From a virus, in the IMG/VR virus record IMGVR_UViG_3300042892_005961, positions 1-64,000 of that record: a stretch of DNA of 64,000 nucleotides. The stretch is one strand, 5' to 3'. Below the pieces are notes generated by a model. That model had not been told where the DNA came from and made no database searches. It saw only the letters and a program-made list of their open reading frames with translations. The position numbers were made by a program, and so were the translations under genes. Below are positions 40,551 to 62,257 of the stretch, one piece after another. Numbering within the stretch: position 1 is the stretch's first letter; each line of letters starts with the position of its first letter.

Positions 40551-40551
40551 T

Positions 40552-41913: not shown

Positions 41914-43175
41914 TGAAACCAACAATATTATTTAGAGGACCAGTTAAAACAAGAAGTGGTTATGGTTCACACTCAAGAGATTTATTAGAGGCACTATATC
42001 AAATGAATATATTTGATATTAAAATTGATAGTTGTATGTGGGGGAATACTCCCATGACTGCTTTGGAACCGGATAATACATTTCATAAATGGATTGAAAG
42101 TAATATCGTTTATAAATTTGACGGTCTACCTGATATCTATATACAAGTAACGGTACCTAATGAATTTAAAAGATTTGGTAAATTTAATATAGGTATCACC
42201 GCAGGAATTGAAACAACTGTTGCACCTAAAGATTGGATTGATGGTTGTAATCAAATGGATTTAATAATTACAACATCTAATTTTTCTAAAGATGTTTTAT
42301 TATCTACAGTTTATGATGAAAGAAATAAAACAACAAATGAATTAACTAATCAACATAAGATAACAAAACCAATTGAAGTGTTATTTGAAGGTGTTGATAC
42401 ATCAATCTTTAATGATGTAATCAATAAAGATTTTAAATTAGATATTAAAGAAAACTTCGCATTTTTATTTGTTGGTCATTGGTTAAAGGGAAACATAGGT
42501 CAAGACAGGAAAGACATTGGTATGTTGATTAAATGTTTTGTTGAGGCATTTAAGGATGGTAATGATATGCCGGCGTTGGTATTAAAAACATCATCATCAA
42601 GTTTTTCAATTAAAGAAAGAGAAGTTTTTACTAAAAGAATAAAAGATATTGTTTCTGATATTAAAAATCCTCCGTCAATTTATTTATTATTTGGTGATTT
42701 AAGTAATAAAGAAATGAATGATCTATATAACCATCCAAAAATTAAACTAATGGTTTCACTAACTAAAGGTGAGGGATTTGGTAGACCTTTATTAGAATTT
42801 ACAATGACTGGTAAACCTGTAATGGCTTCCAATTGGTCGGGTCATAAAGATTTTTTATCTGTTGATAAATCAATTATGATTGGTGGTAAATTAACAGATG
42901 TTGACGATAGTGCAATTGATCAGTTTATTATTAAAGGATCTAAATGGTTTACCGCAAATTATGGTGAAGTTGCTGAAATTATGAAAATAGCTAGAAACGA
43001 TTATAGTAATTTCTTACTAAAATCTTTAAAACTTAAAGAAGAGAATAAACAAAACTTTTCTTTAGAAAAAATGAAAGAACGTTTTGAGGAGATATTAAAA
43101 CCATATTCAATTGCGTTTCAACCTCCTCCACAACAAACCAAATTAATTTTACCTAAATTAAATAAAGTTAAATAA
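41913..43175 (+). CDS. GT4-type glycosyltransferase
   Basis: A 420-residue GT-B enzyme: TRSGYGSHSRDLL near the start (loop before the first helix), EGVDTSIFN and LFVGHWLKG, then KGEGFGRPLLEFTMTGKPVMASNWSGH with the E-x7-E motif. The C-terminal end is basic and Pro-rich. The start overlaps the stop of the preceding GT by one base. Together with the previous gene it could add two successive sugars to the same acceptor. Confidence 0.85.
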   Translation: MKPTILFRGPVKTRSGYGSHSRDLLEALYQMNIFDIKIDSCMWGNTPMTALEPDNTFHKWIESNIVYKFDGLPDIYIQVTVPNEFKRFGKFNIGITAGIETTVAPKDWIDGCNQMDLIITTSNFSKDVLLSTVYDERNKTTNELTNQHKITKPIEVLFEGVDTSIFNDVINKDFKLDIKENFAFLFVGHWLKGNIGQDRKDIGMLIKCFVEAFKDGNDMPALVLKTSSSSFSIKEREVFTKRIKDIVSDIKNPPSIYLLFGDLSNKEMNDLYNHPKIKLMVSLTKGEGFGRPLLEFTMTGKPVMASNWSGHKDFLSVDKSIMIGGKLTDVDDSAIDQFIIKGSKWFTANYGEVAEIMKIARNDYSNFLLKSLKLKEENKQNFSLEKMKERFEEILKPYSIAFQPPPQQTKLILPKLNKVK

Positions 43176-43405
43176 TGAACTTCAAATTTTTTAAAGGTGA
43201 TGAAACACCTACATTATGTTTTACACCTCATAGATATGAACCAGAAAATGCTGAATTTTGTTTTCAATTTGGTGATGAAGAACCCGTTGTTTTCGCTTCG
43301 GGTCCAAATGATTGTAGTATTCGTTTAAGTCCAACGAGTAATACTGAAATGACGTTTAATGATAATGGTAGAGTATTTAAATTATTCGCAAGAGAAAGAC
43401 AATAA
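43175..43405 (+). CDS. F-K-F-F motif protein
   Basis: A 76-residue protein starting MNFKFFKGDE, then a beta-rich body (CFQFGDEEPVVFASGPNDCSIRLSP). It is embedded in the glycan operon, with one-base overlap upstream, and is immediately followed by another F-x-F-F protein. Both resemble at their first 10 residues the proteins at 1211-2258, 5237 and 17174. Confidence 0.6.
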   Translation: MNFKFFKGDETPTLCFTPHRYEPENAEFCFQFGDEEPVVFASGPNDCSIRLSPTSNTEMTFNDNGRVFKLFARERQ

Positions 43406-43406
43406 T

Positions 43407-43649
43407 ATGGGAGTTAGAGAGTTTAGATTTTTTCACGGGATCACAATTCAATCGGAAGGTATTCAAAATATCGTTAGAACACTACGTGCTCAATGGAGAC
43501 CTGAGTTGGTTGATGATTTAAATACTGTTTACTCAATTGATGCTGAGGCAGAATTAACAAGATTAATGTCGGAACAAATTGTGGAAGAAATTGACAACGA
43601 AGTAATAAATATATTAACGGGAAGAATAAACGGAGGACAAAGAGCATAA
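43407..43649 (+). CDS. F-R-F-F motif protein
   Basis: An 80-residue protein starting MGVREFRFFHGITIQ, then helical. The FFHG block is also in the protein at 5237 (FVFFHGY). The ATG at 43407, in a TAATATG junction, is preferred to upstream in-frame codons inside the previous gene. Association of two such proteins with the glycan operon suggests they could be acceptors or structural partners of the modification system. Confidence 0.6.
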   Translation: MGVREFRFFHGITIQSEGIQNIVRTLRAQWRPELVDDLNTVYSIDAEAELTRLMSEQIVEEIDNEVINILTGRINGGQRA

Positions 43650-43650
43650 T

Positions 43651-44271
43651 ATGAAAATAAGTTTTGCAATTACAGTTTGTAATGAATTAGAGGAAATAAA
43701 AAAATTGGTTTCATTTTTATTTAAACATAAAAGAAAGGAAGACGAGATTGTTATTCTCTATGATGAGAAGAACGGCAATCCCGAAATATTAGATTTCTTA
43801 TTACCATATAATAAATTCCCTCACGTTCAAACGTGGAGAGGGTTTGATTTTGAAAGTAACTTTGCAGATTGGAAAAATAAATTAAATGACTACTGTCAGG
43901 GAGATTATATCTATCAAATAGATGCCGATGAAATGGTTAGTGAATATATAGTTAAAAATCTTAATCAAATATTAGAATTAAATCCAAAGGTTGATTTAAT
44001 ATTTGTTCCTCGTATTAATACAGTTAATGGTATAACACAAGAACACATTAATAAATGGGGTTGGAATGTTAATGAAAAAGGATGGGTAAACTTTCCCGAT
44101 GCTCAAGGACGAATATATCGTAAAGGTATGAGTTGGTATGGTAAGGTTCACGAACGAATAATAGGTGGTCAAAAATTTTCATCATTACCTTTAGATGAAG
44201 AATATTGTATACAACACCATAAGACGATTGATCGTCAAGAAAAACAAAACAATTACTATAGTTCATTATGA
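43651..44271 (+). CDS. GT2-type glycosyltransferase
   Basis: A 206-residue GT-A enzyme of the WaaE/Alg5-like branch: ISFAITVCNELEEIKKLV at the start, IYQIDADEMVS (DxD-like metal site, about 88-98), and the acceptor-side WYGKVHERIIGG near residue 168. It is short, with no membrane segments. The start follows the F-R-F-F gene by one base, and the stop overlaps the next gene. Confidence 0.8.
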   Translation: MKISFAITVCNELEEIKKLVSFLFKHKRKEDEIVILYDEKNGNPEILDFLLPYNKFPHVQTWRGFDFESNFADWKNKLNDYCQGDYIYQIDADEMVSEYIVKNLNQILELNPKVDLIFVPRINTVNGITQEHINKWGWNVNEKGWVNFPDAQGRIYRKGMSWYGKVHERIIGGQKFSSLPLDEEYCIQHHKTIDRQEKQNNYYSSL

Positions 44272-44882
44272 GTTATCAATACCCAAAACATTTTAAGTAC
44301 CCAGAAGGAGAACGTTATTTCTTTTTAAATCATGTAGATTCATGGAAACATTTCTTACCTAACTATGGTGATGAACCAAGAGTGTGTTTAGAGATAGGTG
44401 CATTGTATGGTGGATCTTCAGTTTATATTTTAGATGAATTCTGTAAAAAAGAAGGTTCACATCATTATATAATGGATATCAATACAAATGAATTTATTGA
44501 AAATAATATTAAACCATATAAAGATAAGGTAACATATATTTTAGGTGAATCGGCCGATAGTTTTAAAACATTTAACCATAATGGTGAAACTAAAGAGTTT
44601 TTAGACTTTGTTTACATAGATGGTAATCATATGTGTAAATATGTTTTAGAAGATGCTGTAAATGCATTTTACTGTTTGAAAGATTATGGTTATATTATCT
44701 TTGATGATTACGGTGGAGGACTTGAACAAGATCAATATTTACAAGTTAAAACTGGTGCTGACGCGTTTTATCATGGATATCACAAATATTTAGAAATAGT
44801 GTATAACGGTTATCAAGTCATTATGAAAAAAATAAATTATATAAATGAAAATGATTTAAAAGAAAATTATTATAAAGTATGA
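44268..44882 (+). CDS. Class I SAM methyltransferase (CmcI/TylF-like)
   Basis: A 204-residue methyltransferase: CLEIGALYGGSSVYILDEF (motif I, about 42-60), YIMDIN (motif II) and FVYIDGNHMCKYVLEDA then GYIIFDDYGGG (motif IV/V region with the conserved DD). This is the O-methyltransferase type that caps sugars or small molecules. Overlaps neighbours by four bases on both sides. Confidence 0.78.
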   Translation: MSYQYPKHFKYPEGERYFFLNHVDSWKHFLPNYGDEPRVCLEIGALYGGSSVYILDEFCKKEGSHHYIMDINTNEFIENNIKPYKDKVTYILGESADSFKTFNHNGETKEFLDFVYIDGNHMCKYVLEDAVNAFYCLKDYGYIIFDDYGGGLEQDQYLQVKTGADAFYHGYHKYLEIVYNGYQVIMKKINYINENDLKENYYKV

Positions 44883-45874
44883 AAATATTAATTACAGGAG
44901 TTGCGGGATTGTTAGGTTCAAGATTATCGGATTACATTATTGAAAATCATTCAGATGTTTATATCGTTGGTATTGATGATATGAGTGGTGGATATAGGGA
45001 GAATGTTAATCCAAAGGTTGAGTTATGGGAAATGAATTTAGTTAATGGTAATATTAGTGAATGTTTTGAAAGACATCAATTTGATTATGTTTACCATTTC
45101 GCAGCATATGCCGCTGAGGGATTATCCCCATTCATTAGAACATATAACTATCAAAACAATTTAGTTGCAACGTCGCGCATTATTACACAATGTATTAAAC
45201 ACAATATTAAAAGATTAGTATTCACGTCTACATTGGCGGTATATGGTCACCAGGATGGTAATATATTTGACGAAATTCAAGTACCTAAGCCTATTGACCC
45301 GTACGGTGTTGCTAAATATGGTTGTGAAATGGATATACAGATTGCTGGTGAGCAACATGGACTTGATTGGTGTATTATTAGACCACACAACGTTTACGGT
45401 GTTAAACAGAACGTATGGGACAAATATAGAAACGTATTAGGTATATGGATGTATCAACATACAATCAACGAACCTATGACAATATTTGGTGACGGTACAC
45501 AAACAAGAGCTTTCAGTTATATTGATGACAGTCTTGAACCATTATGGAAAGCATCTCAAGATATTAGAGCATCAAAAGAAATAATTAACTTAGGTGGTGT
45601 TAAAGAATACTCAATAAACGAAGCTAATGAAATTTTACGTGAAGTAGTTGGTGGAGGTGAGGTAAAATATTTTGAAGGTAGACATGAAGTGAAACACTCA
45701 ATACCTACTTGGCAAAAATCAATTGACTTATTAGACTTTGAACATAAAACAGATTTGAAGGAAGGTTTAACTAAAATGTGGGAGTGGGTTAAAAGTCAAC
45801 CAGTTAGAGAGAGGTTCGTGTGGCCGTTCTACGAATTAGATAAAGGAATTTATTCATTTTGGAAAACAAAGTAA
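44879..45874 (+). CDS. NAD-dependent NDP-sugar epimerase/dehydratase
   Basis: A 331-residue extended SDR. GVAGLLG (7-13) binds NAD; TST (116-118), Tyr142 and Lys146 (PYGVAKYG) form the catalytic set; FTSTLAVYGH and the FGDGTQTRAFSYIDD block match UDP-glucose/GlcNAc 4-epimerases and dTDP-glucose 4,6-dehydratases. Without a specific residue test, 4-epimerase is the better guess. It provides an activated sugar for the operon's transferases. Confidence 0.8.
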   Translation: MKILITGVAGLLGSRLSDYIIENHSDVYIVGIDDMSGGYRENVNPKVELWEMNLVNGNISECFERHQFDYVYHFAAYAAEGLSPFIRTYNYQNNLVATSRIITQCIKHNIKRLVFTSTLAVYGHQDGNIFDEIQVPKPIDPYGVAKYGCEMDIQIAGEQHGLDWCIIRPHNVYGVKQNVWDKYRNVLGIWMYQHTINEPMTIFGDGTQTRAFSYIDDSLEPLWKASQDIRASKEIINLGGVKEYSINEANEILREVVGGGEVKYFEGRHEVKHSIPTWQKSIDLLDFEHKTDLKEGLTKMWEWVKSQPVRERFVWPFYELDKGIYSFWKTK

Positions 45875-45875
45875 T

Positions 45876-46898
45876 ATGAAAAAAGTATTAGTATTAGGTG
45901 CTGGTGGATTCATCGGTTCACATTTAGTAAAAAAATTAAAAGAACAAGGATGTTGGGTTAGAGGAGTTGATTTAAAATATCCTGAATATGAAACAAGTGT
46001 TGCAGATGATTTTGTTATTCGTGATTTAAGAGACCCAAGAAATGTTGAGTCTGTGATTAAATTAGAGTCATATAATAATCATCCTTTACCATATAAGTTT
46101 GACCTTTATCCATTCTCAGATAAATTACAATTTGATGAAGTGTATCAATTAGCTGCCGATATGGGTGGAGCTGGTTATATTTTTAGTGGTGATAATGATG
46201 CAAATGTGATGCACAATTCTGCAATGATTAATTTAAATGTTGCATATGAATGTTCAAGACAGGAAGTTAAAAAAGTATTTTATTCTTCTTCCGCTTGTAT
46301 GTATCCAGAACATAATCAATTAGATCCAACTAATCCAAATTGTGAAGAATCTTCAGCCTATCCAGCAAATCCAGATTCAGAATATGGATGGGAAAAATTA
46401 TTTAGTGAAAGAATGTTTTTAGCTTTTCATAGAAATTATAATTTAGATATTAGAATTGCTAGATTTCATAACATATTTGGACCATATGGAACATATAAAG
46501 ATGGAAAAGAAAAGGCACCTGCAGCTATATGTAGAAAAGTTGCTGAGTGTTTAGATGGTGGTGAAATTGAAGTATGGGGAGATGGTGAACAAACTCGTTC
46601 TTTTTTATACATCGATGAATGTATTGAAGGAGTATTAAAATTAATGGAATCAGATTTTATTGGTCCAGTAAATATTGGTAGTGATGAAATGGTAACCATA
46701 AATGATATGGTAAATAGTGTAATCGACATTAGTGGTAAAACGGTACATGTTAAACATGTCGACGGTCCAACTGGTGTTAGAGGTAGAAATAGTGACAATA
46801 CTTTAATTAAAGAAAAATTAAATTGGTCACCAAAACAACCTTTATATGATGGACTAATAAAAACATTTAATTGGATAAACAAAGAAATTATTAAATGA
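45876..46898 (+). CDS. GDP-mannose 3,5-epimerase-like
   Basis: A 340-residue extended SDR closely resembling plant GDP-D-mannose 3,5-epimerase: GAGGFIG (8-14), LAADMGGAG, SSSACMYPE with Cys141, EYGWEKL with Tyr170/Lys174, KEKAPAAICRK, GDGEQTRSFLYIDECIEGV, and GVRGRNSDNTLIKEKLNW. The plant enzyme turns GDP-mannose into GDP-L-galactose and GDP-L-gulose. All active-site residues appear present. Such an enzyme in a phage is unusual and implies an L-galactose- or L-gulose-type sugar in the product. Confidence 0.9.
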   Translation: MKKVLVLGAGGFIGSHLVKKLKEQGCWVRGVDLKYPEYETSVADDFVIRDLRDPRNVESVIKLESYNNHPLPYKFDLYPFSDKLQFDEVYQLAADMGGAGYIFSGDNDANVMHNSAMINLNVAYECSRQEVKKVFYSSSACMYPEHNQLDPTNPNCEESSAYPANPDSEYGWEKLFSERMFLAFHRNYNLDIRIARFHNIFGPYGTYKDGKEKAPAAICRKVAECLDGGEIEVWGDGEQTRSFLYIDECIEGVLKLMESDFIGPVNIGSDEMVTINDMVNSVIDISGKTVHVKHVDGPTGVRGRNSDNTLIKEKLNWSPKQPLYDGLIKTFNWINKEIIK

Positions 46899-47470
46899 AA
46901 ATAGAATTTATTATACCGACATACAATAGACCTCATCAATTAATGGGTGTGATAAGTTCTATATATTCACAAACATCACCTAATTGGAAAATACACGTTG
47001 TTGCAGATGCTGTTTATGATGGTTATCAAAAAGTAAAAGATTATTTTAACGGTGACGATAGAATAAGATTTACAGAATTAAATGGTCCACATAAAGATTG
47101 GGGACATACCCCAAGAAATTATGGATTACAACATGCAACGGAAGAATGGGTTGTTATGACAGGTGACGATAATTACTATATGCCAATCTTTGTCGAAGAT
47201 TTTTTAAATTCTGTGGAAAAAAACACACATTTTGTTTATTGTAATATGGTTCACAATTGGGTTAATAATCAATACATTGTTTTAAATTCAATTCCTAAAT
47301 TAGGTGCCATAGACATCGGTAATTTTATGTCTAAAACAGATTTGGCTAAAAATATAAAATTAGATATTACATATGAACAATCTGATGGTTTATTTGTTGA
47401 GGAGTATCTAAGAAAATATCCTCACGGAACTATTAAAAAAATAAATAAACCACTATACGTACATAATTAA
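46895..47470 (+). CDS. GT2-type glycosyltransferase
   Basis: A 191-residue GT-A enzyme: EFIIPTYNRPHQLMGVISSI at the start, WGHTPRNYGL (conserved R/N before the DxD) and VVMTGDDNYYMP (about 87-98) as the metal-binding site. The ending is short with an HGTIKKINKP strand. Four-base overlap upstream, three-base gap downstream. Confidence 0.78.
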   Translation: MKIEFIIPTYNRPHQLMGVISSIYSQTSPNWKIHVVADAVYDGYQKVKDYFNGDDRIRFTELNGPHKDWGHTPRNYGLQHATEEWVVMTGDDNYYMPIFVEDFLNSVEKNTHFVYCNMVHNWVNNQYIVLNSIPKLGAIDIGNFMSKTDLAKNIKLDITYEQSDGLFVEEYLRKYPHGTIKKINKPLYVHN

Positions 47471-47473
47471 ATT

Positions 47474-47953
47474 ATGAAACAACAAACAAAACAAGAATTA
47501 GAGGATTGGTATAAAAAAAATGATCCTTGGTCATATAAAACAACTAATGATGATATTATTAGAAAAGAAAAAATATTATCATTATTAGAAAACTATAATA
47601 CGGCATTAGATATTGGTTGCGGTGAAGGATTTATTACGACAGATTTACCCGCAAACAAAATTTACGGAATAGAATTATCTGATAATGCGTCCTTAAGATT
47701 ACCAAATAACATTATTAGATTAATGAAACCAATGGAAAAATATGATTTGGTAATGACAACCGGTACATTATATACTCAATATAATAATGAACAAATAAGA
47801 AATTGGATTTTTGAGTCATCAAAAAAACACATACTGGTTGGTGGAATTAAAGATTGGATGTTGTGGTCCGACTATGGTAAAATAATAAAAGAAATAGAAT
47901 TTAAGTATAGAGAATATACACAAATAATTAGATTATATGAGGTTACTACATAA
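47474..47953 (+). CDS. SAM methyltransferase, short class I
   Basis: A 159-residue protein with motif I ALDIGCGEGF (about 43-52), acidic IYGIELSDN after it, and MTTGTLYTQY in place of motif IV. It resembles the NodS-type sugar N-methyltransferases in order with a deacetylase gene next to it, as in nodS/nodB systems, although that similarity is only suggestive. It overlaps the deacetylase gene by 17 nt. Confidence 0.65.
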   Translation: MKQQTKQELEDWYKKNDPWSYKTTNDDIIRKEKILSLLENYNTALDIGCGEGFITTDLPANKIYGIELSDNASLRLPNNIIRLMKPMEKYDLVMTTGTLYTQYNNEQIRNWIFESSKKHILVGGIKDWMLWSDYGKIIKEIEFKYREYTQIIRLYEVTT

Positions 47954-48449
47954 TATAGGAGATATAAGACATTCAAATTATCACACTCGTGATCAAATTT
48001 TAAAATCAAACGAACCATTAGGTTTTGATGGAATATATCTTAATGTTTATGAAAACAAGGATGTGTTAAAAGAGAAGATCGGAATTTTTTTTGTAATGGG
48101 TAATTACATCGGTGGAGACAATTCATTTGATTTAAAATATGTACCGAAGTTAGAAAAATATTGTACATGGGAACAAATACATGAAATGTGTGAAGAGTTT
48201 GATTTTGAAATAGGTTGGCATACTTGGAGTCATCCAGATTTAAGGACATTATCAAAAGAAGAAATAATAAAGGAAATTACTCCCCCATTTCCTATGAGAT
48301 ATTTTGCATATCCATACGGACACTTTAATGATTTAGTTATCGAATGTGTTAAGGAAGTTGGTTTTGAAAAAGCATGGAGTGTTCACCAAGGTTCAAGAAA
48401 TCCAAATGAAAAGGATTATAATTTTAAAATATACAGACCATACTTATGA
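47937..48449 (+). CDS. Polysaccharide deacetylase-like (NodB domain)
   Basis: A 170-residue CE4-type protein with GIFFVMGNYIG, HTWSH (His95, His99; metal-binding pair) and RYFAYPYG (121-128). The usual TFDDG motif is replaced by LGFDGIYLNVYE, so the catalytic Asp pair is reduced to Asp31. It may deacetylate an N-acetyl sugar or be a degenerate form. No signal peptide, so it works on cytoplasmic intermediates. Confidence 0.75.
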   Translation: MRLLHNIGDIRHSNYHTRDQILKSNEPLGFDGIYLNVYENKDVLKEKIGIFFVMGNYIGGDNSFDLKYVPKLEKYCTWEQIHEMCEEFDFEIGWHTWSHPDLRTLSKEEIIKEITPPFPMRYFAYPYGHFNDLVIECVKEVGFEKAWSVHQGSRNPNEKDYNFKIYRPYL

Positions 48450-49180
48450 TTAATTTTGAACAACTTAAGAAAGAATATAACGAAAAAGGTATTATAGTTA
48501 TGTCAAATGTTTTTACGTCAGAAGAGTGTGACGAAATTAAAAAGAATGCTTATTCTGTGAGAGATGAGGATATTAAAAAAAGTGGTTATCCACACGTACC
48601 AAGTGAAAAGAAAAATGGTAAAAGATTGTTAGTTTTTTTTCCGTCACTTGTTAACGAATATCTGAATAAAATTAGAACGGATGAAAGGATGATTAATTTG
48701 GTTAAAAATTTTATTGGTGATGATGTTAAACAAATAAATAATCAAATTTATTTTAGAGAAAGTGGTGACCAAGATCAATTTGCGTGGCATCAAGACGTTA
48801 TGTTTAGAGAGGATATAAATTTCAATAACGATGTAGAGGATGATTATTTCCAAACAATAATTGCCGTTGATGATATAACAGAGGACAATGGTGCAATTGA
48901 ATTTATTGATGGTTCACATAAGACAATGAGGATTCCGATTCCAAATAATTTACGAGAATTTAAAAGAGGTGACTTAAGTGGTAAGAAATATACCGCAAAT
49001 AAAGGTGATGTTTTGATATGGTCAGTTTTATCTGTTCATGGTAGTGAGCCAAATCAATCAAAGAAAGATAGAATGACATATATGAATGGATTCTGTAGGT
49101 CAAAATCAACAAAAACATATCCTGATTACTTGAAAAATGGTGAAATAATTCGTAATATTAATGTAAACCATATACCATGA
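48446..49180 (+). CDS. PhyH-type 2-oxoglutarate/Fe(II) dioxygenase
   Basis: A 244-residue phytanoyl-CoA dioxygenase-like enzyme: FAWHQDVMF (His115, Asp117), SVHGSEPN (His198) and DRM (Arg209) make up the Fe and 2-oxoglutarate sites. Bacterial PhyH relatives hydroxylate small molecules, including sugars and lipid precursors. Within the glycan operon it probably hydroxylates a sugar or acyl group. Overlaps neighbours by four bases. Confidence 0.8.
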   Translation: MINFEQLKKEYNEKGIIVMSNVFTSEECDEIKKNAYSVRDEDIKKSGYPHVPSEKKNGKRLLVFFPSLVNEYLNKIRTDERMINLVKNFIGDDVKQINNQIYFRESGDQDQFAWHQDVMFREDINFNNDVEDDYFQTIIAVDDITEDNGAIEFIDGSHKTMRIPIPNNLREFKRGDLSGKKYTANKGDVLIWSVLSVHGSEPNQSKKDRMTYMNGFCRSKSTKTYPDYLKNGEIIRNINVNHIP

Positions 49181-49791
49181 GTACTATAACAGTTGTGATT
49201 GCTTCATATCAATATGGACATTTAGCCGCACATTGTATTGAAAGTGTTTTATGTCAATCGAGAAAACCTGATAAGATTTTATTTGTAGATGACGGTGTTG
49301 GTGATTGTAGTCACCTACCAAAAATATATCCTGAAGTTGAATATGTGTTGAGGGAAAAAAACATGGGTACTGTTGCAAATTTTCAGGATATGTTGATGAG
49401 AGTGACAACCGATAAATGTATGTTTTTAGGTGCAGATAATTGGTTAAGGGCAGATACTTTAGAAATATTAGACAAAATTGATGCTGATGTTGTTGTTTAT
49501 GATATAGTAGTTACCGGCGATTCAAAAAAAGGTTTACATGATAGACACGGGAATGAAATGACATCATATCAAGGGGATTTATATTGGACTAGATATAAAC
49601 AACATCATGGCTCAATGTTATATAAAACAAAATTAGCACAATCAATTGGTTACAAGGGAACCGGTGGTAAACATTCAGAAGAAGATTTATATCTTTTTAG
49701 AGAAATGAAAAATCGCGGTGCAAAAATGGAATGGGTTAAAGAAGGTCTTTTATATTACAGAAGACATAGAGAAAATTTTATAAAAACATAA
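49177..49791 (+). CDS. GT2-type glycosyltransferase
   Basis: A 204-residue GT-A enzyme: TITVVIASYQYGHLAAHCIESV, then KILFVDDGVGDCS (nucleotide-binding Asp pair), CMFLGADNWLRAD (about 82-94, DxD equivalent) and KHSEEDLYLFREM (catalytic ED motif). Complete but compact. Confidence 0.82.
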   Translation: MSTITVVIASYQYGHLAAHCIESVLCQSRKPDKILFVDDGVGDCSHLPKIYPEVEYVLREKNMGTVANFQDMLMRVTTDKCMFLGADNWLRADTLEILDKIDADVVVYDIVVTGDSKKGLHDRHGNEMTSYQGDLYWTRYKQHHGSMLYKTKLAQSIGYKGTGGKHSEEDLYLFREMKNRGAKMEWVKEGLLYYRRHRENFIKT

Positions 49792-49792
49792 T

Positions 49793-50905
49793 ATGAAAAT
49801 AAGTTTAGTGCTAGCGGTTTACAATAAATTAGATTTAACAACGGAATGTTACAAAAGATTACGTCAGTTATATCCCAACGCACCATTAGTTATTAGTAGT
49901 GGTGGATCAAGTGATGGAACCAAAGAATGGTTAGAATCATTAGAAGATGAAAACCTATCTTTCTTTCATGATGATGATCGTTTAACATTCTCAGAAACAT
50001 ATAACGCAGGTATTGATCTTGTTGATACGGAAAAAATTGTTCTTATCCATAACGATATGGTTATTGGTGAAGGTTTCTTAGAGGCAATAGAAAGACTATT
50101 AACTGAAAATATGATCTTATCCTACACAACAATTGAACCTCCTATTTTTAAAGGTCATTCAAGACCTGGTAAAGTATTGTTAGATTTGGGTAGTGGGTTT
50201 GATAACTTTGATCAAACTAATTTTAATAATTACATTCAAAAATGGAAAGATACTGATACACTACACGATGGTGCGGTCTTCTTTATGTCAGCATATAAGA
50301 AAACATTTATTGACTTAGGTGGTTTTGATGGATTTAGTTTTGTTCCATGTTTTTGTGAAGATGATGACTTTTTAATCCGTGCGAAACTAAAAGGGTATGA
50401 ATTAAAAACTTGTGATTCTGCAATTACCTATCATTTTGTTTCGCAGACATCAAGGTTCAGTGATGAAATGAAAGATGTACGTGGAACAATTGAAGCTCAT
50501 TCAATTAGAAACTTTATAAGAAAATGGGGGATTAGTATTCCAATGTTTAACGCGATGGATTATCAAACAACAGATAACTTTACATACGTTAAGAAAATTG
50601 TTGGTGTTAAATTAAGTAGTACCAAACATATTGAATTATTGGAACCATTCTTTGATAAGATTGAGATTGATGAGTTCCCAACGGAATATGTTGAAAAGGA
50701 ACAAGGATCTACTCGTTACAATTTAACTAAGAAATTTGAAGATGTTAATGATGTTGATATTAAAGTATTTGTTACCGATAACTTTAATCAGGATGATTTT
50801 AACATGGTCAACGCATTGAGAGTATCTCTTGATGATTACGGACCTGGTGTTTATGAAAATGGTAATATAACAGTGTTGATAATAGATAAGGATCAAAAGG
50901 CATAA
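49793..50905 (+). CDS. GT2-type glycosyltransferase with extra C-terminal domain
   Basis: A 370-residue enzyme: ISLVLAVYNKLDLTTECYKRL, LIHNDMVIG (metal site, about 81-89), GGFDGFSFVPCFCEDDDFLIRAKL (acceptor and ED motifs, about 180-203). The last 150 residues (from about 215) form an additional alpha/beta part of unknown role. It is the last gene of the plus-strand operon, meeting the minus-strand gene at 50893 with a 13-nt overlap. Confidence 0.82.
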   Translation: MKISLVLAVYNKLDLTTECYKRLRQLYPNAPLVISSGGSSDGTKEWLESLEDENLSFFHDDDRLTFSETYNAGIDLVDTEKIVLIHNDMVIGEGFLEAIERLLTENMILSYTTIEPPIFKGHSRPGKVLLDLGSGFDNFDQTNFNNYIQKWKDTDTLHDGAVFFMSAYKKTFIDLGGFDGFSFVPCFCEDDDFLIRAKLKGYELKTCDSAITYHFVSQTSRFSDEMKDVRGTIEAHSIRNFIRKWGISIPMFNAMDYQTTDNFTYVKKIVGVKLSSTKHIELLEPFFDKIEIDEFPTEYVEKEQGSTRYNLTKKFEDVNDVDIKVFVTDNFNQDDFNMVNALRVSLDDYGPGVYENGNITVLIIDKDQKA

Positions 50906-51528
50906 TTGCCGACGTGTTTAACCATCATACTTAAGTATGTGTCAATAAACACTTCATATCCTAATTCTCTTAACTTACCTAATAAAATAAAGTCTTCACC
51001 GAAGTAATCTTCGGTGTTTTCTTTATATCTAAATTCAAAATATGGTTTTTCTAATTTATCGAATGTATCTAATTTCATTAACATACATCCCATACCTACT
51101 CCCTCCACTTTAACGAGGTCTTCCTGTATTTCCATTGGTAACCAACTATTCCAATCATTTAAATCGGTGTATGCAACCGTTTTAAGGGGTTTTGAACGTC
51201 TCATATAGTTACATGCTACAATGTCCTTATTGTGTTCTAAAAGACGTAATGCGGTGGTTGGTGGGAACATCATATCACTATCTAACCAAAGGACATAATC
51301 TGAATTTACTTCCTTTGCTTTCTTAATAAGATTGTTTCTTTGATTTAATAATATTGTACTTGAATCGTAGAATAAATAAGCATCTATACCTGCCTCTCTT
51401 GTTGTATTAAATAATTGAGTTATACAATAAGAGAACTGACTATGAACAGTATCCCTCGTTGGGACTAATATTGATAACTTAAGTGGTTTTACCTCCCACA
51501 TTGAGCTATTGTTGATTGATTTACTCAT
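50893..51528 (-). CDS. GT-A glycosyltransferase-like protein
   Basis: A 211-residue protein: KLSILVPTRDTVHSQFSY near residue 16, YVLWLDSDMMFPP (about 82-94; DSD metal site), VGMGCMLMKL and EDFILLGKLRELGYEV (ED motif). Similar proteins are frequent in large phages. It overlaps the next gene by four bases. Donor unknown. Confidence 0.75.
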   Translation of the reverse strand: MSKSINNSSMWEVKPLKLSILVPTRDTVHSQFSYCITQLFNTTREAGIDAYLFYDSSTILLNQRNNLIKKAKEVNSDYVLWLDSDMMFPPTTALRLLEHNKDIVACNYMRRSKPLKTVAYTDLNDWNSWLPMEIQEDLVKVEGVGMGCMLMKLDTFDKLEKPYFEFRYKENTEDYFGEDFILLGKLRELGYEVFIDTYLSMMVKHVGNYAF

Positions 51529-52224: not shown

Positions 52225-52257
52225 GATATATTTCTTTTAACTAAGTTCTTTGTTATA

Positions 52258-52294
52258 AATACTTACCACATTTTTTTAAGACGTGGTAAGTATT
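52258..52294 (-). promoter_or_regulatory. Long perfect hairpin with embedded TATTTAT box
   Basis: A 12-bp perfect inverted repeat AATACTTACCAC/GTGGTAAGTATT around a 13-base loop, between the fibre gene and the 72-residue gene. No U-tract follows on the minus strand, so it may be a processing or stability signal. One arm, with the next bases, contains the TATTTAT promoter-like box. Confidence 0.6.
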
Positions 52295-52306: not shown

Positions 52307-53653
52307 TTATTTTATTTTAGCTTCTAAAGCTTCAACACGAATTAATAATTCTTTGTTTGTTTCAATTAACAAAGCAACTAATTTTTCATATTTAACAGCC
52401 ATATAACCGTTGTCTCTTGTTGTTACAATTTCAGGTAAAACTGCATCAATTTCTTGTGCAATAACTCCTATATCGTGACCTTCGTTCTCATGTATACCCG
52501 GCATTTCTTTCCAATCAAAATAATAACCGTTGATTTGTTTTAATATATCTAAAGAACCTGTAATTGAATGAATGTTTTCTTTTAGTCTTTCATCAGAACT
52601 GTAAAATGCAATAACGTCATTTGTCGCTCTAATTAAACCGACAGTTGTTGGTGTTGACGTACCTACACCCAAAGCTCCTGTTAATGATACTGTTGTTCCG
52701 TTATCAGTTATTGATGAGTTACCCACAGTCGATGCTGATGTGAATTTAGTCAATATATTGGTAGTACCTGATGTTGTGATTGAAGTTCCTGAAGAACCAT
52801 TTGATCCTGAAGAACCTGATGTTCCTGAAGAACCATTTGATCCTGAAGAACCTGATGTTCCTGATGAACCTGAAGAACCACTTGTTCCTGAAGAACCTGA
52901 TGTTCCTGAAGAACCGTTAGAACCTGAAGAACCACTTGTTCCTGAAGAACCACTTGTTCCTGAAGAACCTGAAGAACCATTAGATCCTGAAGATCCACTT
53001 GTTCCTGAAGAACCATTAGATCCTGAAGATCCACTTGTTCCTGAAGAACCTGAAGAACCACTTGTTCCTGAAGAACCTGAAGAACCACTTGTTCCTGATG
53101 TTGCTGCAGTATATGATGTTCCATTAATGAATAATGAACCAGTCACAACCATACTACCACTAACAGACATGCTACCTGTGATAGATTGACTACCAGTAAT
53201 ATTTTGACTACCTACTAATGTACTTTGACTTGATCCTGCAGAACCTGTTGGAGGAACTGGTAGACCTACCGCCGCCAAACTTGCTGAAGTTTGTACAACT
53301 TGAGTACCTATTTGGATTGTACCATCAGTGTTTGTACTGATAGCTTTTATACCACCAATAAAGATAGATCCTGTAGATACATAGATGTCCTTCCACCAAT
53401 GTGTCGCATCACCCAAATCGTAAGCATTATTAACAGATGGGATTATAGATCCGCTAATTGTTTGGTTTGCTGTGAATAGGTTACTACCTGTGGTAGCGAA
53501 ACGAGCAGAACCCGTTGTGTTTAGGGATAGTGCGTTTGTGGATGTACCACTAATCGCAGCATTTATTGTTCCGTCTACCGTAAGATCTCCAAAAAAACGA
53601 GCCGAGCCCGATACGTTTAGTGATCCAGAGACATTTGCGTCAAATATTTTCAT
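52307..53653 (-). CDS. Tail fibre with Gly-Ser/Thr triplet shaft and S74 chaperone
   Basis: A 448-residue fibre protein. Residues 1-186 have repeated VSGS-type beta segments and NNAYDLGDATHWWKDIYVSTG, typical of phage fibres. Residues 187-291 are about 35 consecutive G-(S/T)-(S/N) triplets. From about residue 350, SSDERLKENI begins the S74 intramolecular chaperone (Ser/Lys of autocleavage present), ending in a coiled coil LIRVEALEAKIK-like segment. The chaperone trimerises and is then cleaved off. It is directly downstream of a BAHT heptosyltransferase gene, a likely enzyme for the Ser-rich shaft. Confidence 0.85.
   Translation of the reverse strand: MKIFDANVSGSLNVSGSARFFGDLTVDGTINAAISGTSTNALSLNTTGSARFATTGSNLFTANQTISGSIIPSVNNAYDLGDATHWWKDIYVSTGSIFIGGIKAISTNTDGTIQIGTQVVQTSASLAAVGLPVPPTGSAGSSQSTLVGSQNITGSQSITGSMSVSGSMVVTGSLFINGTSYTAATSGTSGSSGSSGTSGSSGSSGTSGSSGSNGSSGTSGSSGSNGSSGSSGTSGSSGTSGSSGSNGSSGTSGSSGTSGSSGSSGTSGSSGSNGSSGTSGSSGSNGSSGTSITTSGTTNILTKFTSASTVGNSSITDNGTTVSLTGALGVGTSTPTTVGLIRATNDVIAFYSSDERLKENIHSITGSLDILKQINGYYFDWKEMPGIHENEGHDIGVIAQEIDAVLPEIVTTRDNGYMAVKYEKLVALLIETNKELLIRVEALEAKIK
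52781..53095 (-). repeat. Gly-X-Y triplet repeat (GSS/GTS/GSN) in the fibre gene
   Basis: About 315 bp of 9-nt units encode 35 Gly-(Ser/Thr)-(Ser/Asn) triplets. Around 60% of residues carry a hydroxyl. No Pro or Lys is present, so collagen stability must come from other forces. The DNA periodicity favours slippage, so repeat number is likely variable between strains. Confidence 0.9.
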
Positions 53654-53674
53654 AGGTTATATTGTTATACCCTA

Positions 53675-53681
53675 ATAAATA
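53675..53681 (-). promoter_or_regulatory. TATTTAT box (putative phage promoter) of the fibre gene
   Basis: Minus-strand AAAGTATTTATTAGG, 21 nt before the fibre ATG. A palindrome TTTGAACTTTCAAA lies just upstream (53683-53696). Confidence 0.5.
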
Positions 53682-53713
53682 CTTTGAACTTTCAAATTGT
53701 ATAAAAAATATCT

Positions 53714-55843
53714 CTAAATTGGTAGAAGTTTTTCGAGTTTTTCTATAACTTCTCCTCCTGTAATAGTTTTTGAACATTCAAATTGGTTTTCTGTCTTTTC
53801 ATGAATAGGACACCAATTCCAATTACCTGGATCAAATTCATGGTTAGACCAACAACTATTACATACATTTTTATTGATTACCCTTGTTACACCGTCTAAT
53901 GGTTCTAAATCTACGTCAGTAAAACCTGAAATAATTACTGTAGGGGTTCCTGACGCCCAAGATAACCAACTTAATCCACTGCTTATACCTATAAATAATT
54001 CAGACTCTTGTAAAACTTTTATGATATCGGTCAGTTTACCCTTAGGTTGTACCGTAATTCCTTTAGGATGTTTGTTACCCATGTAACCATCTTCCTCACG
54101 AGATAAGAGTCTGACTTCATAATTCTTAGCTTTAAGATAATCTACCACCTCCTGCCAACCGGTTGGATTATTCCAATATTTACATTGAGCTGTTGAATGA
54201 ATAGCAATTGAAACCAATTTTTTCTTCTTCTTACCTAATTTCTTTAATTTAGGTTTAAGTTCCACATAATCCAATCCGAGAATATCGGATGCCACTTTCA
54301 TTAATGGTTCCTTTTTAGGGTCGTTGTAATGTTTTGTATAATCAATTTTACGTTCATTAGTATAAAATAACCCCAAACGATATAACGCGTGTATATTATT
54401 TACGTTTGATCCAGGTAAAACAAACTCAATATCGGGATACTGATCTTTGAATAGATCATTATTGAATGATGAACAAATTACTTTACATTTATTATCTGTT
54501 CTAAATTTCTCAACATATGGTATCCAAGCTAAACTATCTCCTAATGATTTAGATTCAAAACATATCATTACTCTTTTATCCGTTAAATCAAAATTATACT
54601 CTTGGTAGAAATTATTATCAACACCTTTAATTTTAATTAACCAATCTACATAGTATTTTTTAGACGATCTAACCCAATGATTACTCTTTAAATTAAACTC
54701 AAATTCTAATTTACCATTTTTCTTATCTATAAATTGAACGTTGTAAAGATAATCACCTTCTTCTAATACCTCAACAAATGGACCATCAACAAAATGAATG
54801 TTTGTTCTTCTATTTGTGTTAACATTATTTCTTGATAGTTTATTCTTTCTTCTAAACTCATTCATTTCATCTTTAAGTTCCTGTGTGAATATTTCCAATC
54901 CTTGATGACGTACTTCAACTACTTCATTTTGTTTATATTCACCGAGTCTTTCTAATTTGTATTCACCCTTTTTAACTGTATGGAATTTTTTATATGTTCC
55001 ATAGTTAACTTCAATTAAATAATCCTTATCAGCTGGTTGTTCTGAAAATCCGGATATAAAATGAATAAACAATTGTCCCGCATCATCAACACCTAAATAA
55101 GTTTGTAAACGAGCACCATTTTTTAATATACCATTCCTATTCCATACCGCAAACATATTAAGTTCATTATCATTAGGGATATACTTACTAACAAATATAC
55201 TATTGGTAACCTTCTTAATTGATTGGTATAATTGTTTTTCTAATTGCCATCTATCGGGTTTACCCTTGAAGTATTCTTCTTTACTATTAATAAGACTAAT
55301 CATCTTTAACGCAACATCGGTCTTAATTGAAAAGATATAAGCTGAACTATATGGATTACTTTCTTTTGTTGATCCTTCTGAATACTCGTAAACTACGGCA
55401 TCATTACTTCTAATATATTCCATAAATGCTTGACGATACTGAATTTCATCTGGTAAGTTATCATACTCTAAGAAATGAATATATTGTTTACCTAATTGTT
55501 TAACAAGATTGAAAGCATTTTTCATTGTCAACCAAATTGCATAGTCGTGATGAAAATCTATTTTATTAGTTATCTTATACGTTCCCATATCAGTCCATCT
55601 ATCACTATTAATACCATACTCAGCAAAATCCTTTTCTAATAATATGTCGTTATTACCATCATATAGATAGTAATCCGCTAACACTTGTATCTCAGGTGAA
55701 ACTGCATAATGTCCACATAATATAATGGGACAATTATAAACCTTTAAACTTATAAGTAATTTCTTTAAAACATTTTCTTTATCTTTATTATCAGGCCAGC
55801 AGTCAACTACAAAAACATCATCATTAAATTGTGTATATCCCAT
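53714..55843 (-). CDS. BAHT-family protein O-heptosyltransferase fused to a GT-A-like domain
   Basis: A 709-residue fusion. Residues 1-320 are homologous to the stand-alone protein at 2248-3207. From about 350 the protein matches bacterial autotransporter heptosyltransferases (TibC/Aah): IHFVDGPFVEVLEEGD, FDLTDKRVMICFESKSLGDS, AWIPYVEKF, a GT9 fold (GISSGLSWLSWASGTP), and the iron-finger cysteines CNSC ... NWNWCP ... FECSKTI near the end. TibC/Aah attach heptose from ADP-heptose to serines of autotransporter repeats. The neighbouring gene is a Ser-rich fibre, the obvious candidate substrate. No signal peptide; cytoplasmic. Confidence 0.85.
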   Translation of the reverse strand: MGYTQFNDDVFVVDCWPDNKDKENVLKKLLISLKVYNCPIILCGHYAVSPEIQVLADYYLYDGNNDILLEKDFAEYGINSDRWTDMGTYKITNKIDFHHDYAIWLTMKNAFNLVKQLGKQYIHFLEYDNLPDEIQYRQAFMEYIRSNDAVVYEYSEGSTKESNPYSSAYIFSIKTDVALKMISLINSKEEYFKGKPDRWQLEKQLYQSIKKVTNSIFVSKYIPNDNELNMFAVWNRNGILKNGARLQTYLGVDDAGQLFIHFISGFSEQPADKDYLIEVNYGTYKKFHTVKKGEYKLERLGEYKQNEVVEVRHQGLEIFTQELKDEMNEFRRKNKLSRNNVNTNRRTNIHFVDGPFVEVLEEGDYLYNVQFIDKKNGKLEFEFNLKSNHWVRSSKKYYVDWLIKIKGVDNNFYQEYNFDLTDKRVMICFESKSLGDSLAWIPYVEKFRTDNKCKVICSSFNNDLFKDQYPDIEFVLPGSNVNNIHALYRLGLFYTNERKIDYTKHYNDPKKEPLMKVASDILGLDYVELKPKLKKLGKKKKKLVSIAIHSTAQCKYWNNPTGWQEVVDYLKAKNYEVRLLSREEDGYMGNKHPKGITVQPKGKLTDIIKVLQESELFIGISSGLSWLSWASGTPTVIISGFTDVDLEPLDGVTRVINKNVCNSCWSNHEFDPGNWNWCPIHEKTENQFECSKTITGGEVIEKLEKLLPI

Positions 55844-56505
55844 TATCTTTTTCTTATTAAAATTATTCCATTAAGGAAGGTTATTGATTCTATATCAGTT
55901 CTACAATCAGGTTGTACTTTATTTGAATATGGTATTAGTTTATCTTCTCGTCGATCCCATACTGCGGCTTGATCATCTAAGTTCTCAACACCTCTAAAGT
56001 TAATATCATCCGTTAATTTCTTGAAGTATTCCATCATACTCTTAGGGTCATTTAAACCTCCACCGTACCAAGGGAAATAGGATGTTGCAACATCTTCAAC
56101 AATGTACATACCACCCGATTTAACGTATTGAAATAGTGTTTTAAATGAATAAATAACATGTTCATTCAAATGTGATCCGTCATCTAATATAAAATCAAAT
56201 GGACCATATTCATTTGAAATTTGATTTAAAAACTTATCATCATCTTGTGAACCTATTTCAACAAAAATTCTATCTTCCTCATATTTTTTACAATCAGGAT
56301 TGATGTCAATACCTAAAATATTAGAACGATAATAATAATCCTTCCAAGTTAATAGTGATTTACCATCTAAGACACCAATCTCCAATATGTTTAATTTATC
56401 ATATCTGTTAAATGGTAAATACTTTTCATATTTAACACAATAATTGTGATTGTCGGAAGACTTATCAGTTCCGTATACTTTAGCCAAATTATCTAATGTA
56501 CTCAT
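55843..56505 (-). CDS. SAM methyltransferase (MycE/macrocin-type)
   Basis: A 220-residue methyltransferase: LAKVYGTDKSSDNHNYCVKYE at the start, ILEIGVLDGKSLLTWKDYY (motif I), GIDINPDCKKYE, and FDFILDDGSHLNEHVIYSFK with MYIVEDVATSYFPW, all typical of macrocin/MycE-like sugar O-methyltransferases. ATG at 56503-56505 preferred to an upstream TTG. It overlaps both neighbours, lying between the BAHT fusion and the three-domain protein. Confidence 0.8.
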   Translation of the reverse strand: MSTLDNLAKVYGTDKSSDNHNYCVKYEKYLPFNRYDKLNILEIGVLDGKSLLTWKDYYYRSNILGIDINPDCKKYEEDRIFVEIGSQDDDKFLNQISNEYGPFDFILDDGSHLNEHVIYSFKTLFQYVKSGGMYIVEDVATSYFPWYGGGLNDPKSMMEYFKKLTDDINFRGVENLDDQAAVWDRREDKLIPYSNKVQPDCRTDIESITFLNGIILIRKR

Positions 56506-59237
56506 TTCCAAAAATATATCATTTGTAAACTGTTATTATTACCCATAAATAATAGATATGAATTGAATCCTAATCCATTCATTTTATTTATAAAATTTGT
56601 TCTTAATTCATCATCAAAATCAAAATGACTATGATGATATTCCATTGCTATGGTTTTAACTTTTTGTAAGTTCTCATCACTGATACCCGCAAATGCTGCA
56701 TGTTCTGCTCCTTCAATATCGACCTTAAGGAAATCAATATGATCCACCAAACCACTTTCAAAAAGATAGTTTAATGTATATGTTTTAACACTATATCCTT
56801 CCTGACCTTCAATACCAAAAACATTTGATCCTCCTAAGTGAGTACTCTCATATAAATTCAATTCTCCAATTTCATGTGCAGCAGCCGCATTAAATAATAT
56901 TGAACGTGGGTCAGCATTAAGTGACAGTAATTTAAAATATCGTCTATCTGGTTCAAATGAAATTACTTTACTCGCACCTTGATGATATGCCCACCTATTG
57001 AAGATACCCATATTACCTCCCAAATCAACCACAATATCTCCTTCATGTATTCTTCTTTCATTACCACCTTTATAGTAATCGTGTAAGTTAAAAATTTCAT
57101 GGTAGATAGCTCTTGCCCACCCATACTTATCTGCAACTTCAATGGTTCCACCTTGTACATCTTTAATATCACCTAAGTTCTCTAACTTATATGTGTTAAC
57201 ATCTAATGATGTGTAAAATTGTTCTGATTTATAAAAACTATTATCACGTTTCATCTTAATGAAGTCCATCATGAAATCAGACATCTGTGCATTCTTATTA
57301 CCGTGGAAATAAAGAATTTGATTCTTATCTTTTGGTATTGCTTGGTACCCAAATATTCTATTGAAATTCTGAGGTCCTTCCTCGTTCCAAAACTTTAAGA
57401 AATGATGTTGCGTTTCATTTGTCATTCCATCATCACCATCGTAAGATGATGTATCAAAATTTGATAGTGGTAAATGTTTTTTAAAGTTGTATTTCCATCT
57501 CATCACATTATCAATACCCTCATCGTTCCATAGGTATAAACGTTTGTAATCTTTACCTCCGTCTTCCATTACTTTTACATAATGACTAAGAATCTCTTCA
57601 AACCACCATTTACATTCTTTATTATAGATATACATACAAACGTGCATATAAGGTTGTTGTTTTTGAACTCCCCATTCTTTTGCAACTTGTTCGTTAAATA
57701 GTTGTGAATTTTTTCCATCATCATACCAACCAAAGAATTCTTCCTGAACATGTATATCGGATATCGGATAGTTTTCAATCTGTTTGAAATAAGATTTAAT
57801 ATTATCTACGTTGTAGTTTACGACAACATCACCATCCATCCAAACGTAATTATCAAATCCTTCATTAATAGATTCAATACATGCCATTTGTTTCCAATAC
57901 CATTTATCGTGTTCAGATATCTTTGGTGTTGTTATCGTTCTTTTGATAATATTTGGATAGTCAAATGGAACCTCACAATCAATACCGTATACTATAATCT
58001 TACGTTTAGAAAATTCTAATAATGATTGAACTAACTTTTCAATAACCGGCATGTATCCGATATTACCAGTTGTGATGAAAGCAAAGTCATCAAATTTATT
58101 TTCAAGTATATCTGAAGCACCCTTTGCAACAGTACTCCAATTAAACTCTTCATGTATTTCTTTTGATTCAACCACAGCAAATGATTTATGTCGTTTATAT
58201 TCGTTAAATGCACTTAACATTTGTTCTCCCAAATTATTCCAATCAGGTTCACAATATTCACCAGGGAAATCTTTATGTTCCACATTAGCAGGTTTTAATC
58301 CATCTATCTTTACAGGAATACCTTTACCTTCCGCAAACTGTAACTGACCTCCCCAATCTGAATAGATCGACGGTGTTCCACAAGCCATAGCTTCAATCAA
58401 CGGTAAGTTCCATCCTTCACTACGTGCACATGTAACAAACACATCACCCTCTTGCAAATATTTTACATATTCTTCCTGTGGTGTGAATTTTATAAACTTG
58501 ATATTCGTTGTATCTATGTTGTGATGTTTAACTCTTTCTTCGGTTGTTTTAAGTCCGTCAAATGGATATGGGTTTTCAACTGATGCAATTAACTCCACAT
58601 CATCTCTATCTTTAAATGTCTCACTAAACGCTCTTAAAACCTCTGTAGTTCCCTTTCTATAATCCCATCTACCAAAATGTAAGAACCTAAATTTGTCCTT
58701 CTTTGATGTCTTAGTTAACGGTTTAAATGTATCTACATCAACTCCCTCAGGAACTATTGATATTTTATGTGATGGATAACCCTGTTCAACCAAACAATCA
58801 AATTGCCATTGTGTTGGAACCCATACCTCGTCAAAGTAATGTAATCTTTTAAAGAAATTATCGGGATAACGTGTTGATTCCCAAACATTATAAGCTATTT
58901 TATAACCATCATAGTCATCATAAAAATAACGATTGTTAGTATCAACCAAAACAATATGAACGTCAGGTTTATAACCACCATCATATCCATAGATTGGGTA
59001 ATCCGATCTACTACCATCCGAATTATTAAGAGTTTGAAGAATTAACATATCCTTCATCTCATCTGTAATATAAGGTTCATTATCGTGTGGGGTATCATTC
59101 ATACCCTTCCAACCACCTCCGATTGTTGAATTCCTAACTTTAACTGTGTGGTATTTGTTCAGAGCACAAAAAAAGGACTTTGCGTGATTAGCATATCCTG
59201 TTACTCCGATAAAACATGTATGTGCAAGTATTTTCAT
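56502..59237 (-). CDS. Three-domain GT4 / GT-A / FkbM methyltransferase protein
   Basis: A 911-residue fusion. Residues 1-390: GT4 domain (VPEGVDVDTFKPL, FLHFGRWDYRKGT, CARSEGWNLPLIEAMACGTPSIYSD with E-x7-E). Residues 390-690: a second GT with a GT-A fold (YVWMDGDVVVN, the DxD site; GMA12/GT34-like). Residues 700-911: FkbM-type methyltransferase (VVDLGGNMGIF, SFEPDRRYF, FLKVDIEGAEHAAF). It could add two sugars and cap with a methyl group, perhaps as one assembly. Starts four bases into the upstream junction with a possible promoter at 59243. Confidence 0.85.
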   Translation of the reverse strand: MKILAHTCFIGVTGYANHAKSFFCALNKYHTVKVRNSTIGGGWKGMNDTPHDNEPYITDEMKDMLILQTLNNSDGSRSDYPIYGYDGGYKPDVHIVLVDTNNRYFYDDYDGYKIAYNVWESTRYPDNFFKRLHYFDEVWVPTQWQFDCLVEQGYPSHKISIVPEGVDVDTFKPLTKTSKKDKFRFLHFGRWDYRKGTTEVLRAFSETFKDRDDVELIASVENPYPFDGLKTTEERVKHHNIDTTNIKFIKFTPQEEYVKYLQEGDVFVTCARSEGWNLPLIEAMACGTPSIYSDWGGQLQFAEGKGIPVKIDGLKPANVEHKDFPGEYCEPDWNNLGEQMLSAFNEYKRHKSFAVVESKEIHEEFNWSTVAKGASDILENKFDDFAFITTGNIGYMPVIEKLVQSLLEFSKRKIIVYGIDCEVPFDYPNIIKRTITTPKISEHDKWYWKQMACIESINEGFDNYVWMDGDVVVNYNVDNIKSYFKQIENYPISDIHVQEEFFGWYDDGKNSQLFNEQVAKEWGVQKQQPYMHVCMYIYNKECKWWFEEILSHYVKVMEDGGKDYKRLYLWNDEGIDNVMRWKYNFKKHLPLSNFDTSSYDGDDGMTNETQHHFLKFWNEEGPQNFNRIFGYQAIPKDKNQILYFHGNKNAQMSDFMMDFIKMKRDNSFYKSEQFYTSLDVNTYKLENLGDIKDVQGGTIEVADKYGWARAIYHEIFNLHDYYKGGNERRIHEGDIVVDLGGNMGIFNRWAYHQGASKVISFEPDRRYFKLLSLNADPRSILFNAAAAHEIGELNLYESTHLGGSNVFGIEGQEGYSVKTYTLNYLFESGLVDHIDFLKVDIEGAEHAAFAGISDENLQKVKTIAMEYHHSHFDFDDELRTNFINKMNGLGFNSYLLFMGNNNSLQMIYFWK

Positions 59238-61162: not shown

Positions 61163-61176
61163 TTAAATTAAATAAT

Positions 61177-61764: not shown

Positions 61765-61774
61765 ATTAATTTAA

Positions 61775-62251: not shown

Positions 62252-62257
62252 TATGTA

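Follow-up and report, generated by a model that had tools for sequence, protein, structure and literature searches.

The DNA stretch considered here, referred to as the window, covers positions 1 to 64,000 of the virus record IMGVR_UViG_3300042892_005961, which is 211,168 bp long and comes from a large aquatic phage. An open reading frame on its minus strand (53714-55843) encodes a protein of 709 amino acid residues, the C-terminal half of which belongs to the BAHT family of O-heptosyltransferases, known for attaching heptose to bacterial adhesins. After a gap of 60 nt, the next gene downstream on the same strand encodes a tail-fibre protein with a serine-rich, collagen-like shaft. A sequence-only reading of the window had placed a BAHT-type enzyme directly before a fibre in this manner and had proposed that the phage attaches heptose to its own fibre. 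Both frames are open at these coordinates and the arrangement is confirmed. A separate domain of 345 residues preceding the BAHT part was absent from that reading. The coordinates of the domains and of the neighbouring genes are collected in Table 1.

The BAHT domain and the N-terminal domain

In a profile search, residues 351-705 match TIGR04414 (hepto_Aah_TibC) with 285.5 bits (E 5.6e-85), and the curated cut-off of this family is 200 bits. The protein is also matched in sequence to TibC (PDB code 4rap) by phmmer with E 2e-55. An AlphaFold model of the BAHT part was built with 25 relatives and has a mean pLDDT of 84. The best 21 Foldseek matches of this model are all TibC chains (E 4.6e-32, TM 0.84 by TibC length), followed by the lipopolysaccharide (LPS) heptosyltransferase WaaC and other GT9 enzymes. 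The family assignment made earlier is borne out by both the profile and the predicted structure.

In TibC, Asp110 is the base, Thr226 and Lys230 are located at the β-phosphate, Trp305 at the sugar and Arg286 at adenine N1, while Pro300 is the stereoselectivity residue and four Cys residues bind iron (PMC4358343). Replacement of Asp110, Arg286, Trp305 or Lys230 by Ala abolished or largely diminished the activity, and each of the iron-finger Cys mutants failed (PMC4358343). The residues Asp110, Thr226, Lys230 and Trp305 are all kept in the phage enzyme as D436, T551, K555 and W626. The four cysteines C661, C664, C678 and C690 align with C339, C342, C358 and C370 of TibC. The base, Thr, Lys, Trp and four Cys residues are retained with few exceptions across the aligned set, down to about 31% identity. 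From these conserved residues we infer that the phage enzyme would be catalytically competent.

The BAHT signature had earlier been described as complete, which holds for the four iron-finger cysteines. However, the adenine-contact residue Arg286, a determinant of ADP specificity, is not kept, and the aligned position is occupied by I607. An alignment slip is unlikely because the stretch from 607 to W626 aligns without gaps. This position is Ile, Leu or Val across the group of near relatives, in the loci L024 and L025 and in Microcystis phage Mel-JY01, the only cultured relative whose genome is annotated; it is Ile, Met or Val in the BAHT proteins of methanotrophs. Every one of the 11 bacterial sequences sampled from the branch with the BAHT proteins of Paraburkholderia, Bradyrhizobium and Franconibacter has arginine here, many of them beside autotransporter-like genes, and so do some distant phage groups. 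At the position of Pro300 there is a Ser; AAH also has Ser here and takes both ADP-heptose epimers. The hydrophobic pair Phe265-Val266 at the β-hairpin thumb of TibC is aligned with Y587-M588, conserved in the near group and variable elsewhere.

Since an arginine essential for activity in TibC is Ile607 here and Ile, Leu or Val in the near relatives, ADP-heptose cannot be assumed to be the donor, and heptosyltransferase is used in this text as a family name. The HldE nucleotidyltransferase domain (TIGR02199, rfaE_dom_II) has no match in the 211-kb record. Elsewhere it gives matches below the cut-off in 7 of 18 records, which are weak and of a generic cytidylyltransferase type. Heptose as the sugar, part of the sequence-only reading, is not supported by these results.

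Variants of the domain also occur. Tandem pairs of BAHT-like genes are present in seven loci (L042, L046, L070, L072, L075, L099 and L107), where the second copy has about 29-36% identity to the query domain and is without the N-terminal barrel. One phage relative, L168 (G030:C1:74496-75584), keeps the base, Lys and Trp, with all four iron-finger Cys residues lost (T, Y, Y and S).

Residues 1-345 have no counterpart in TibC and are found alone or in other fusions in phages. This domain has no Pfam match and no PDB match by sequence. Its AlphaFold model (pLDDT 85.9, pTM 0.78) gives weak Foldseek matches to many GT-A proteins, with E-values from 1e-5 to 1e-3 and TMq of about 0.35, among them a Desulfovibrio sugar transferase, COLGALT1 and the PBCV-1 capsid glycosyltransferase. 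Residues D57 and D128 are invariant across 22 relatives, and D128 sits after a core strand, in the place of the metal-binding acid of GT-A enzymes. The model makes a GT-A-like fold likely for the N-terminal half, and the whole protein is probably a double transferase. The appearance of COLGALT1 among the matches raised the candidate function of a collagen galactosyltransferase, which was rejected, since similar scores are reached by GT-A proteins of many unrelated kinds. The BAHT domains of other phages are joined to different parts, for example in a 1226-residue protein of Mel-JY01 annotated as FkbM, and fusions of up to 1606 residues are found in metagenomic contigs.

The Gly-X-X proteins, their promoter box and gene order in relatives

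The fibre shaft, estimated earlier at about 35 Gly-Ser/Thr-Ser/Asn triplets, contains exactly 35 Gly-X-X (GXX) triplets: 19 GSS, 11 GTS and 5 GSN. Ser or Thr makes up 93% of its X and Y positions, and the GSS triplets are without proline. The fibre matches PF01391 (Collagen) with 54.5 bits and PF13884 (Peptidase_S74) with 63.4 bits, and the PHROG families that it matches are those of tail and baseplate proteins. The same genome encodes four more GXX proteins, larger and also rich in Ser, with 112, 140, 216 and 57 triplets, at record positions 104001-122166. They hold 525 of the 560 Ser/Thr-rich triplets of the genome, and of the five candidate substrates the adjacent fibre is the smallest. Among these genes lies that of a 1055-residue Thr/Pro-rich protein with TPTPTP repeats (L175:3622-6786; record 107622-110786, minus strand), a possible second kind of O-glycan acceptor. 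In locus L107 (L107:2-10465), a phage protein with an unbroken run of 1108 GXX triplets (95% Ser/Thr) is encoded 6 kb upstream of the tandem BAHT-like pair.

The sequence AGTATTTAT is found about 30 nt before the fibre gene, 29-30 nt before two of the larger GXX genes and 70 nt before a third. Genome-wide, 8 of its 15 copies are located 22-42 nt before a gene on the same strand, compared with 1.6% for permuted motifs. Copies in the window include 53675-53683, 52255-52263, 23555-23563 and 15813-15821, all on the minus strand. The box upstream of the fibre is conserved in the near relatives L003-L019. Immediately upstream of the enzyme gene no exact copy was seen. The placement of AGTATTTAT suggests that it is probably a promoter element of the phage, perhaps a late one, common to four Ser-rich GXX genes, that of the fibre included. 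The T4-type late promoter TATAAATA was also considered and is not enriched.

With the enzyme alone as query, 77 loci were collected. Among L002-L019, 16 loci have a contig that extends past the enzyme, and in 15 of these, all except L017, the gene that directly follows is the GXX fibre. In L017 and L023 a Ser-rich GXX gene follows about 2 kb further, in L021 and L022 it is found elsewhere in the locus, and L020 has none. The same order is seen in L024 and L025, which the tree places with the methanotroph BAHT proteins and not with the group of the window. In a distant group (L036, L042, L046, L058 and L063) a Ser/Thr-rich GXX gene lies downstream, separated from the enzyme by one small gene. 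A Ser/Thr-rich GXX gene one position further on is also found in L040, L055, L065 and G073, the BAHT gene of G073 lying within a run of Ser-rich genes. The order of a BAHT gene followed by a fibre gene recurs in separate branches of the family tree.

As a background rate, 23 of 719 genes (3.2%) in dereplicated BAHT loci lie directly before a Ser/Thr-rich GXX gene. By hand calculation, the chance that four of about 13 phage branches would have a GXX gene within two positions is about 0.01, which is moderate but not overwhelming. The bacterial BAHT loci serve as a positive control. In many of them (Paraburkholderia, Bradyrhizobium, Kosakonia, Franconibacter and others) a large Ser/Gly/Thr-rich gene on the same strand begins no more than about 200 nt downstream, as expected of an autotransporter. 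The phage fibre fills the slot of the autotransporter substrate beside bacterial BAHT genes.

A reverse search was started from the fibre end. A BAHT gene is present in most records of Ser/Thr-rich GXX fibres and in almost none of those of S74 fibres that lack these repeats. The association gives a Fisher p-value of 2.5e-4 from a hand-grouped table of 23 groups in which relatedness was not removed. As a neutral control, 30 contigs were picked by DnaB of this phage and the terminase of Mel-JY01. Collagen-type repeats occur in 16 of the 30 and BAHT in 2 of the 30; most of these contigs are fragments of roughly 200-kb genomes, where absence means little. Co-presence of BAHT and Ser-rich GXX proteins was rejected as a proof in itself after this control.

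Proposed virion glycosylation and other explanations

The best explanation of the locus is that the phage glycosylates its own virion, and we consider this probable, with real room for doubt. The mechanism that we infer from the domain identities, the kept catalytic residues and the conserved gene order is as follows. The 709-residue protein would be a phage-encoded double glycosyltransferase. Its BAHT-fold half would attach a nucleotide-activated sugar to the hydroxyl groups of serines in the Ser-rich GXX shafts of the phage itself, those of the adjacent fibre and probably also of the four larger proteins. The GT-A-like half, together with the neighbouring GT4/FkbM and methyltransferase genes, would probably extend or cap this sugar. 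Newly made fibres may be decorated in the cytoplasm before assembly, and the sugar could stiffen or protect the proline-free collagen-like shafts or alter the recognition of the particle.

O-Glycans are known on collagen-like rods. The Bacillus protein BclA carries them on the Gly-X-Thr/Ser stalks of the spore surface, although with sugars and enzymes other than those considered here, and in Riftia cuticle collagen, short of hydroxyproline, galactosyl-threonine stabilises the triple helix. These examples suggest a plausible role for sugars on proline-free GSS triplets. A wider proposal would be a widespread phage system in which a fusion of GT-A-like and BAHT domains starts and extends O-glycans on Ser-rich, proline-free virion shafts, the changed base pocket accepting a non-ADP donor and the sugars stabilising the shaft as hydroxyproline does in animal collagen. 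This extension is speculative and rather doubtful.

Several points besides the loss of the adenine-contact arginine weigh against virion glycosylation. Ser-rich GXX fibres are plainly common in aquatic phages, so that co-presence with BAHT is weak evidence and the conserved gene order is the stronger. In several BAHT phages the GXX proteins are low in Ser/Thr (0-24%) or none was found. The autotransporter acceptor repeats TIGR04415, the known type of substrate, are absent from all 34 records at E <= 1, and TibC acts on a β-helix and not on a collagen-like rod (PMC4358343). In addition, the putative promoter box of the fibre means that co-transcription with the enzyme would not be needed. The sequence-only proposal that the phage glycosylates its own fibre gains from the BAHT fold and the gene order; however, the adjacent fibre is not the sole candidate acceptor.

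The main rival is that the infecting phage uses the enzyme to modify the host surface, be it LPS, capsule or adhesins of the host, for example as a block to superinfection, with the fibre nearby because a variable region collects host-interaction genes. Glycosyltransferases in such clusters are usually interpreted in this way (PMC7029224). The host-recognition clusters of pelagimyophages, aquatic T4-like phages, likewise have glycosyltransferase genes beside tail fibres and were interpreted by their authors as modifying the host O-chain (PMC7029224); the word heptosyltransferase is absent from that paper. Epimerases, GT2 and GT4 enzymes, a deacetylase and an oxygenase near the fibre would suit this explanation, as would the many distant phage BAHT genes without a GXX neighbour. 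However, the BAHT family acts on protein serine and not on lipid or polysaccharide acceptors (PMC4358343), and a loose accumulation of genes would not predict an order that the near group retains and that reappears in other branches. We hold host-surface modification to be unlikely.

It is also conceivable that the virion is glycosylated mainly on the four large GXX proteins or on another structural protein, the adjacent fibre being a minor substrate or none. The large proteins hold most of the Ser/Thr-rich triplets, and three of them have the AGTATTTAT box in common with the fibre. However, the conserved neighbour is the S74 fibre and not these proteins, which makes this version quite improbable. 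Least probable, and in our view very unlikely, is that the BAHT part has lost donor binding with the change of Arg286 to Ile and now works as a scaffold or on a different molecule. The effect of the Ala substitution in TibC (PMC4358343) and the residues of the near group at this position point in that direction, but a changed base pocket fits better than decay with the base, Thr, Lys, Trp and four Cys residues kept to low identity.

Virion glycosylation by this enzyme would resemble the TibC and AAH systems in sequence, predicted fold, catalytic Asp, Thr and Lys phosphate contacts, Trp, iron finger and a substrate-like gene directly downstream. It differs from them in being phage-encoded, in the fused second domain, in the change of Arg286 to Ile, and in having a collagen-like fibre as neighbour in place of an autotransporter with TIGR04415 repeats. 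Glycosylation of phage virions as such has been reported for mycobacteriophages (Che8; Freeman et al. 2023, as cited in PMC11256854 and PMC12619734). As described in those citing papers, phage glycosyltransferases decorate the phage's own virion proteins, which is what the present locus may do also; the targets there are the C-termini of capsid and tail-tube proteins, and the enzyme families differ as far as known. The earlier statement that no phage BAHT-fibre pair has been described agrees with a literature search, most subscription journals being outside its reach, in which no paper linking an O-heptosyltransferase or BAHT to a phage fibre was found.

Ser-rich GXX shafts abound in aquatic phages, and their partner chemistry has had no explanation. 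A protein-serine glycosyltransferase conserved beside them offers a direct, testable hypothesis for the purpose of the shaft serines. It would take the BAHT family beyond autotransporters and, next to the mycobacteriophage route, would provide another and unrelated one to glycosylated virions. It also calls into question the routine interpretation of glycosyltransferases beside phage fibres as modifiers of the host O-antigen.

Neighbouring genes

Glycan enzymes flank the fibre on both sides (Table 1). The enzyme gene probably belongs with the upstream run of GT4/FkbM and methyltransferase genes, which overlap it.

Table 1. Domains, genes and promoter box around the BAHT enzyme and the tail fibre (positions in the window)
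Feature	Position	Strand	Description and matches
BAHT domain, residues 346-709	53717..54808	-	TibC-like barrel, GT-B core, thumb, four-Cys iron finger; TIGR04414, TibC 4rap, Foldseek
N-terminal domain, residues 1-345	54809..55843	-	Predicted GT-A-like fold (about 1-220), then β-rich domain
Tail-fibre protein, 448 aa	52307..53653	-	PHROG tail-fibre/baseplate families, best E 2.9e-39; Collagen and Peptidase_S74
35 Gly-X-X triplets, candidate acceptor region	52781..53095	-	GSS/GTS/GSN, 65 Ser/Thr in 70 X/Y positions
Peptidase_S74 chaperone domain, C-terminal end of fibre	52424..52597	-	PF13884 E 2.5e-17
AAGTATTTAT box, putative own (late) promoter of fibre	53675..53684	-	30 nt before fibre start
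Methyltransferase, overlaps enzyme gene start	55843..56511	-	Methyltransf_24; PHROG 21658
GT4 glycosyltransferase/FkbM methyltransferase fusion, upstream of methyltransferase	56502..59237	-	Glycos_transf_1 E 5.6e-15, FkbM E 5.2e-15
Small GT2/Anp1-like glycosyltransferase, far side of fibre	50893..51528	-	PF03452 E 2.5e-8
Convergent glycan cluster	40534..50905	+	Two GT4, four GT2, two NAD-sugar epimerases/dehydratases, methyltransferase, deacetylase, PhyH-type oxygenase

Some further genes of the region may be mentioned. A 72-residue Gly/Ser-rich protein is encoded between the fibre and a 147-residue gene (52006-52224, minus strand); its gene also has a AGTATTTAT box upstream, and in relatives a protein of similar length (72-75 residues) is encoded at the same position. 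Within the glycan cluster, a lone gene for a 96-residue protein (43359-43649, plus strand) matches an internal segment of 60 residues in the T4-type major capsid protein (Gp23, PHROG 138), the sole such match in the 211-kb record. Near the glycan and fibre genes, several small genes for 2OG-Fe(II) oxygenases follow one another (60036-63421, minus strand), three of them above the Pfam cut-off and one just below. An oxygenase together with a collagen-like protein is reminiscent of collagen hydroxylation, but the adjacent shaft has neither proline nor lysine.

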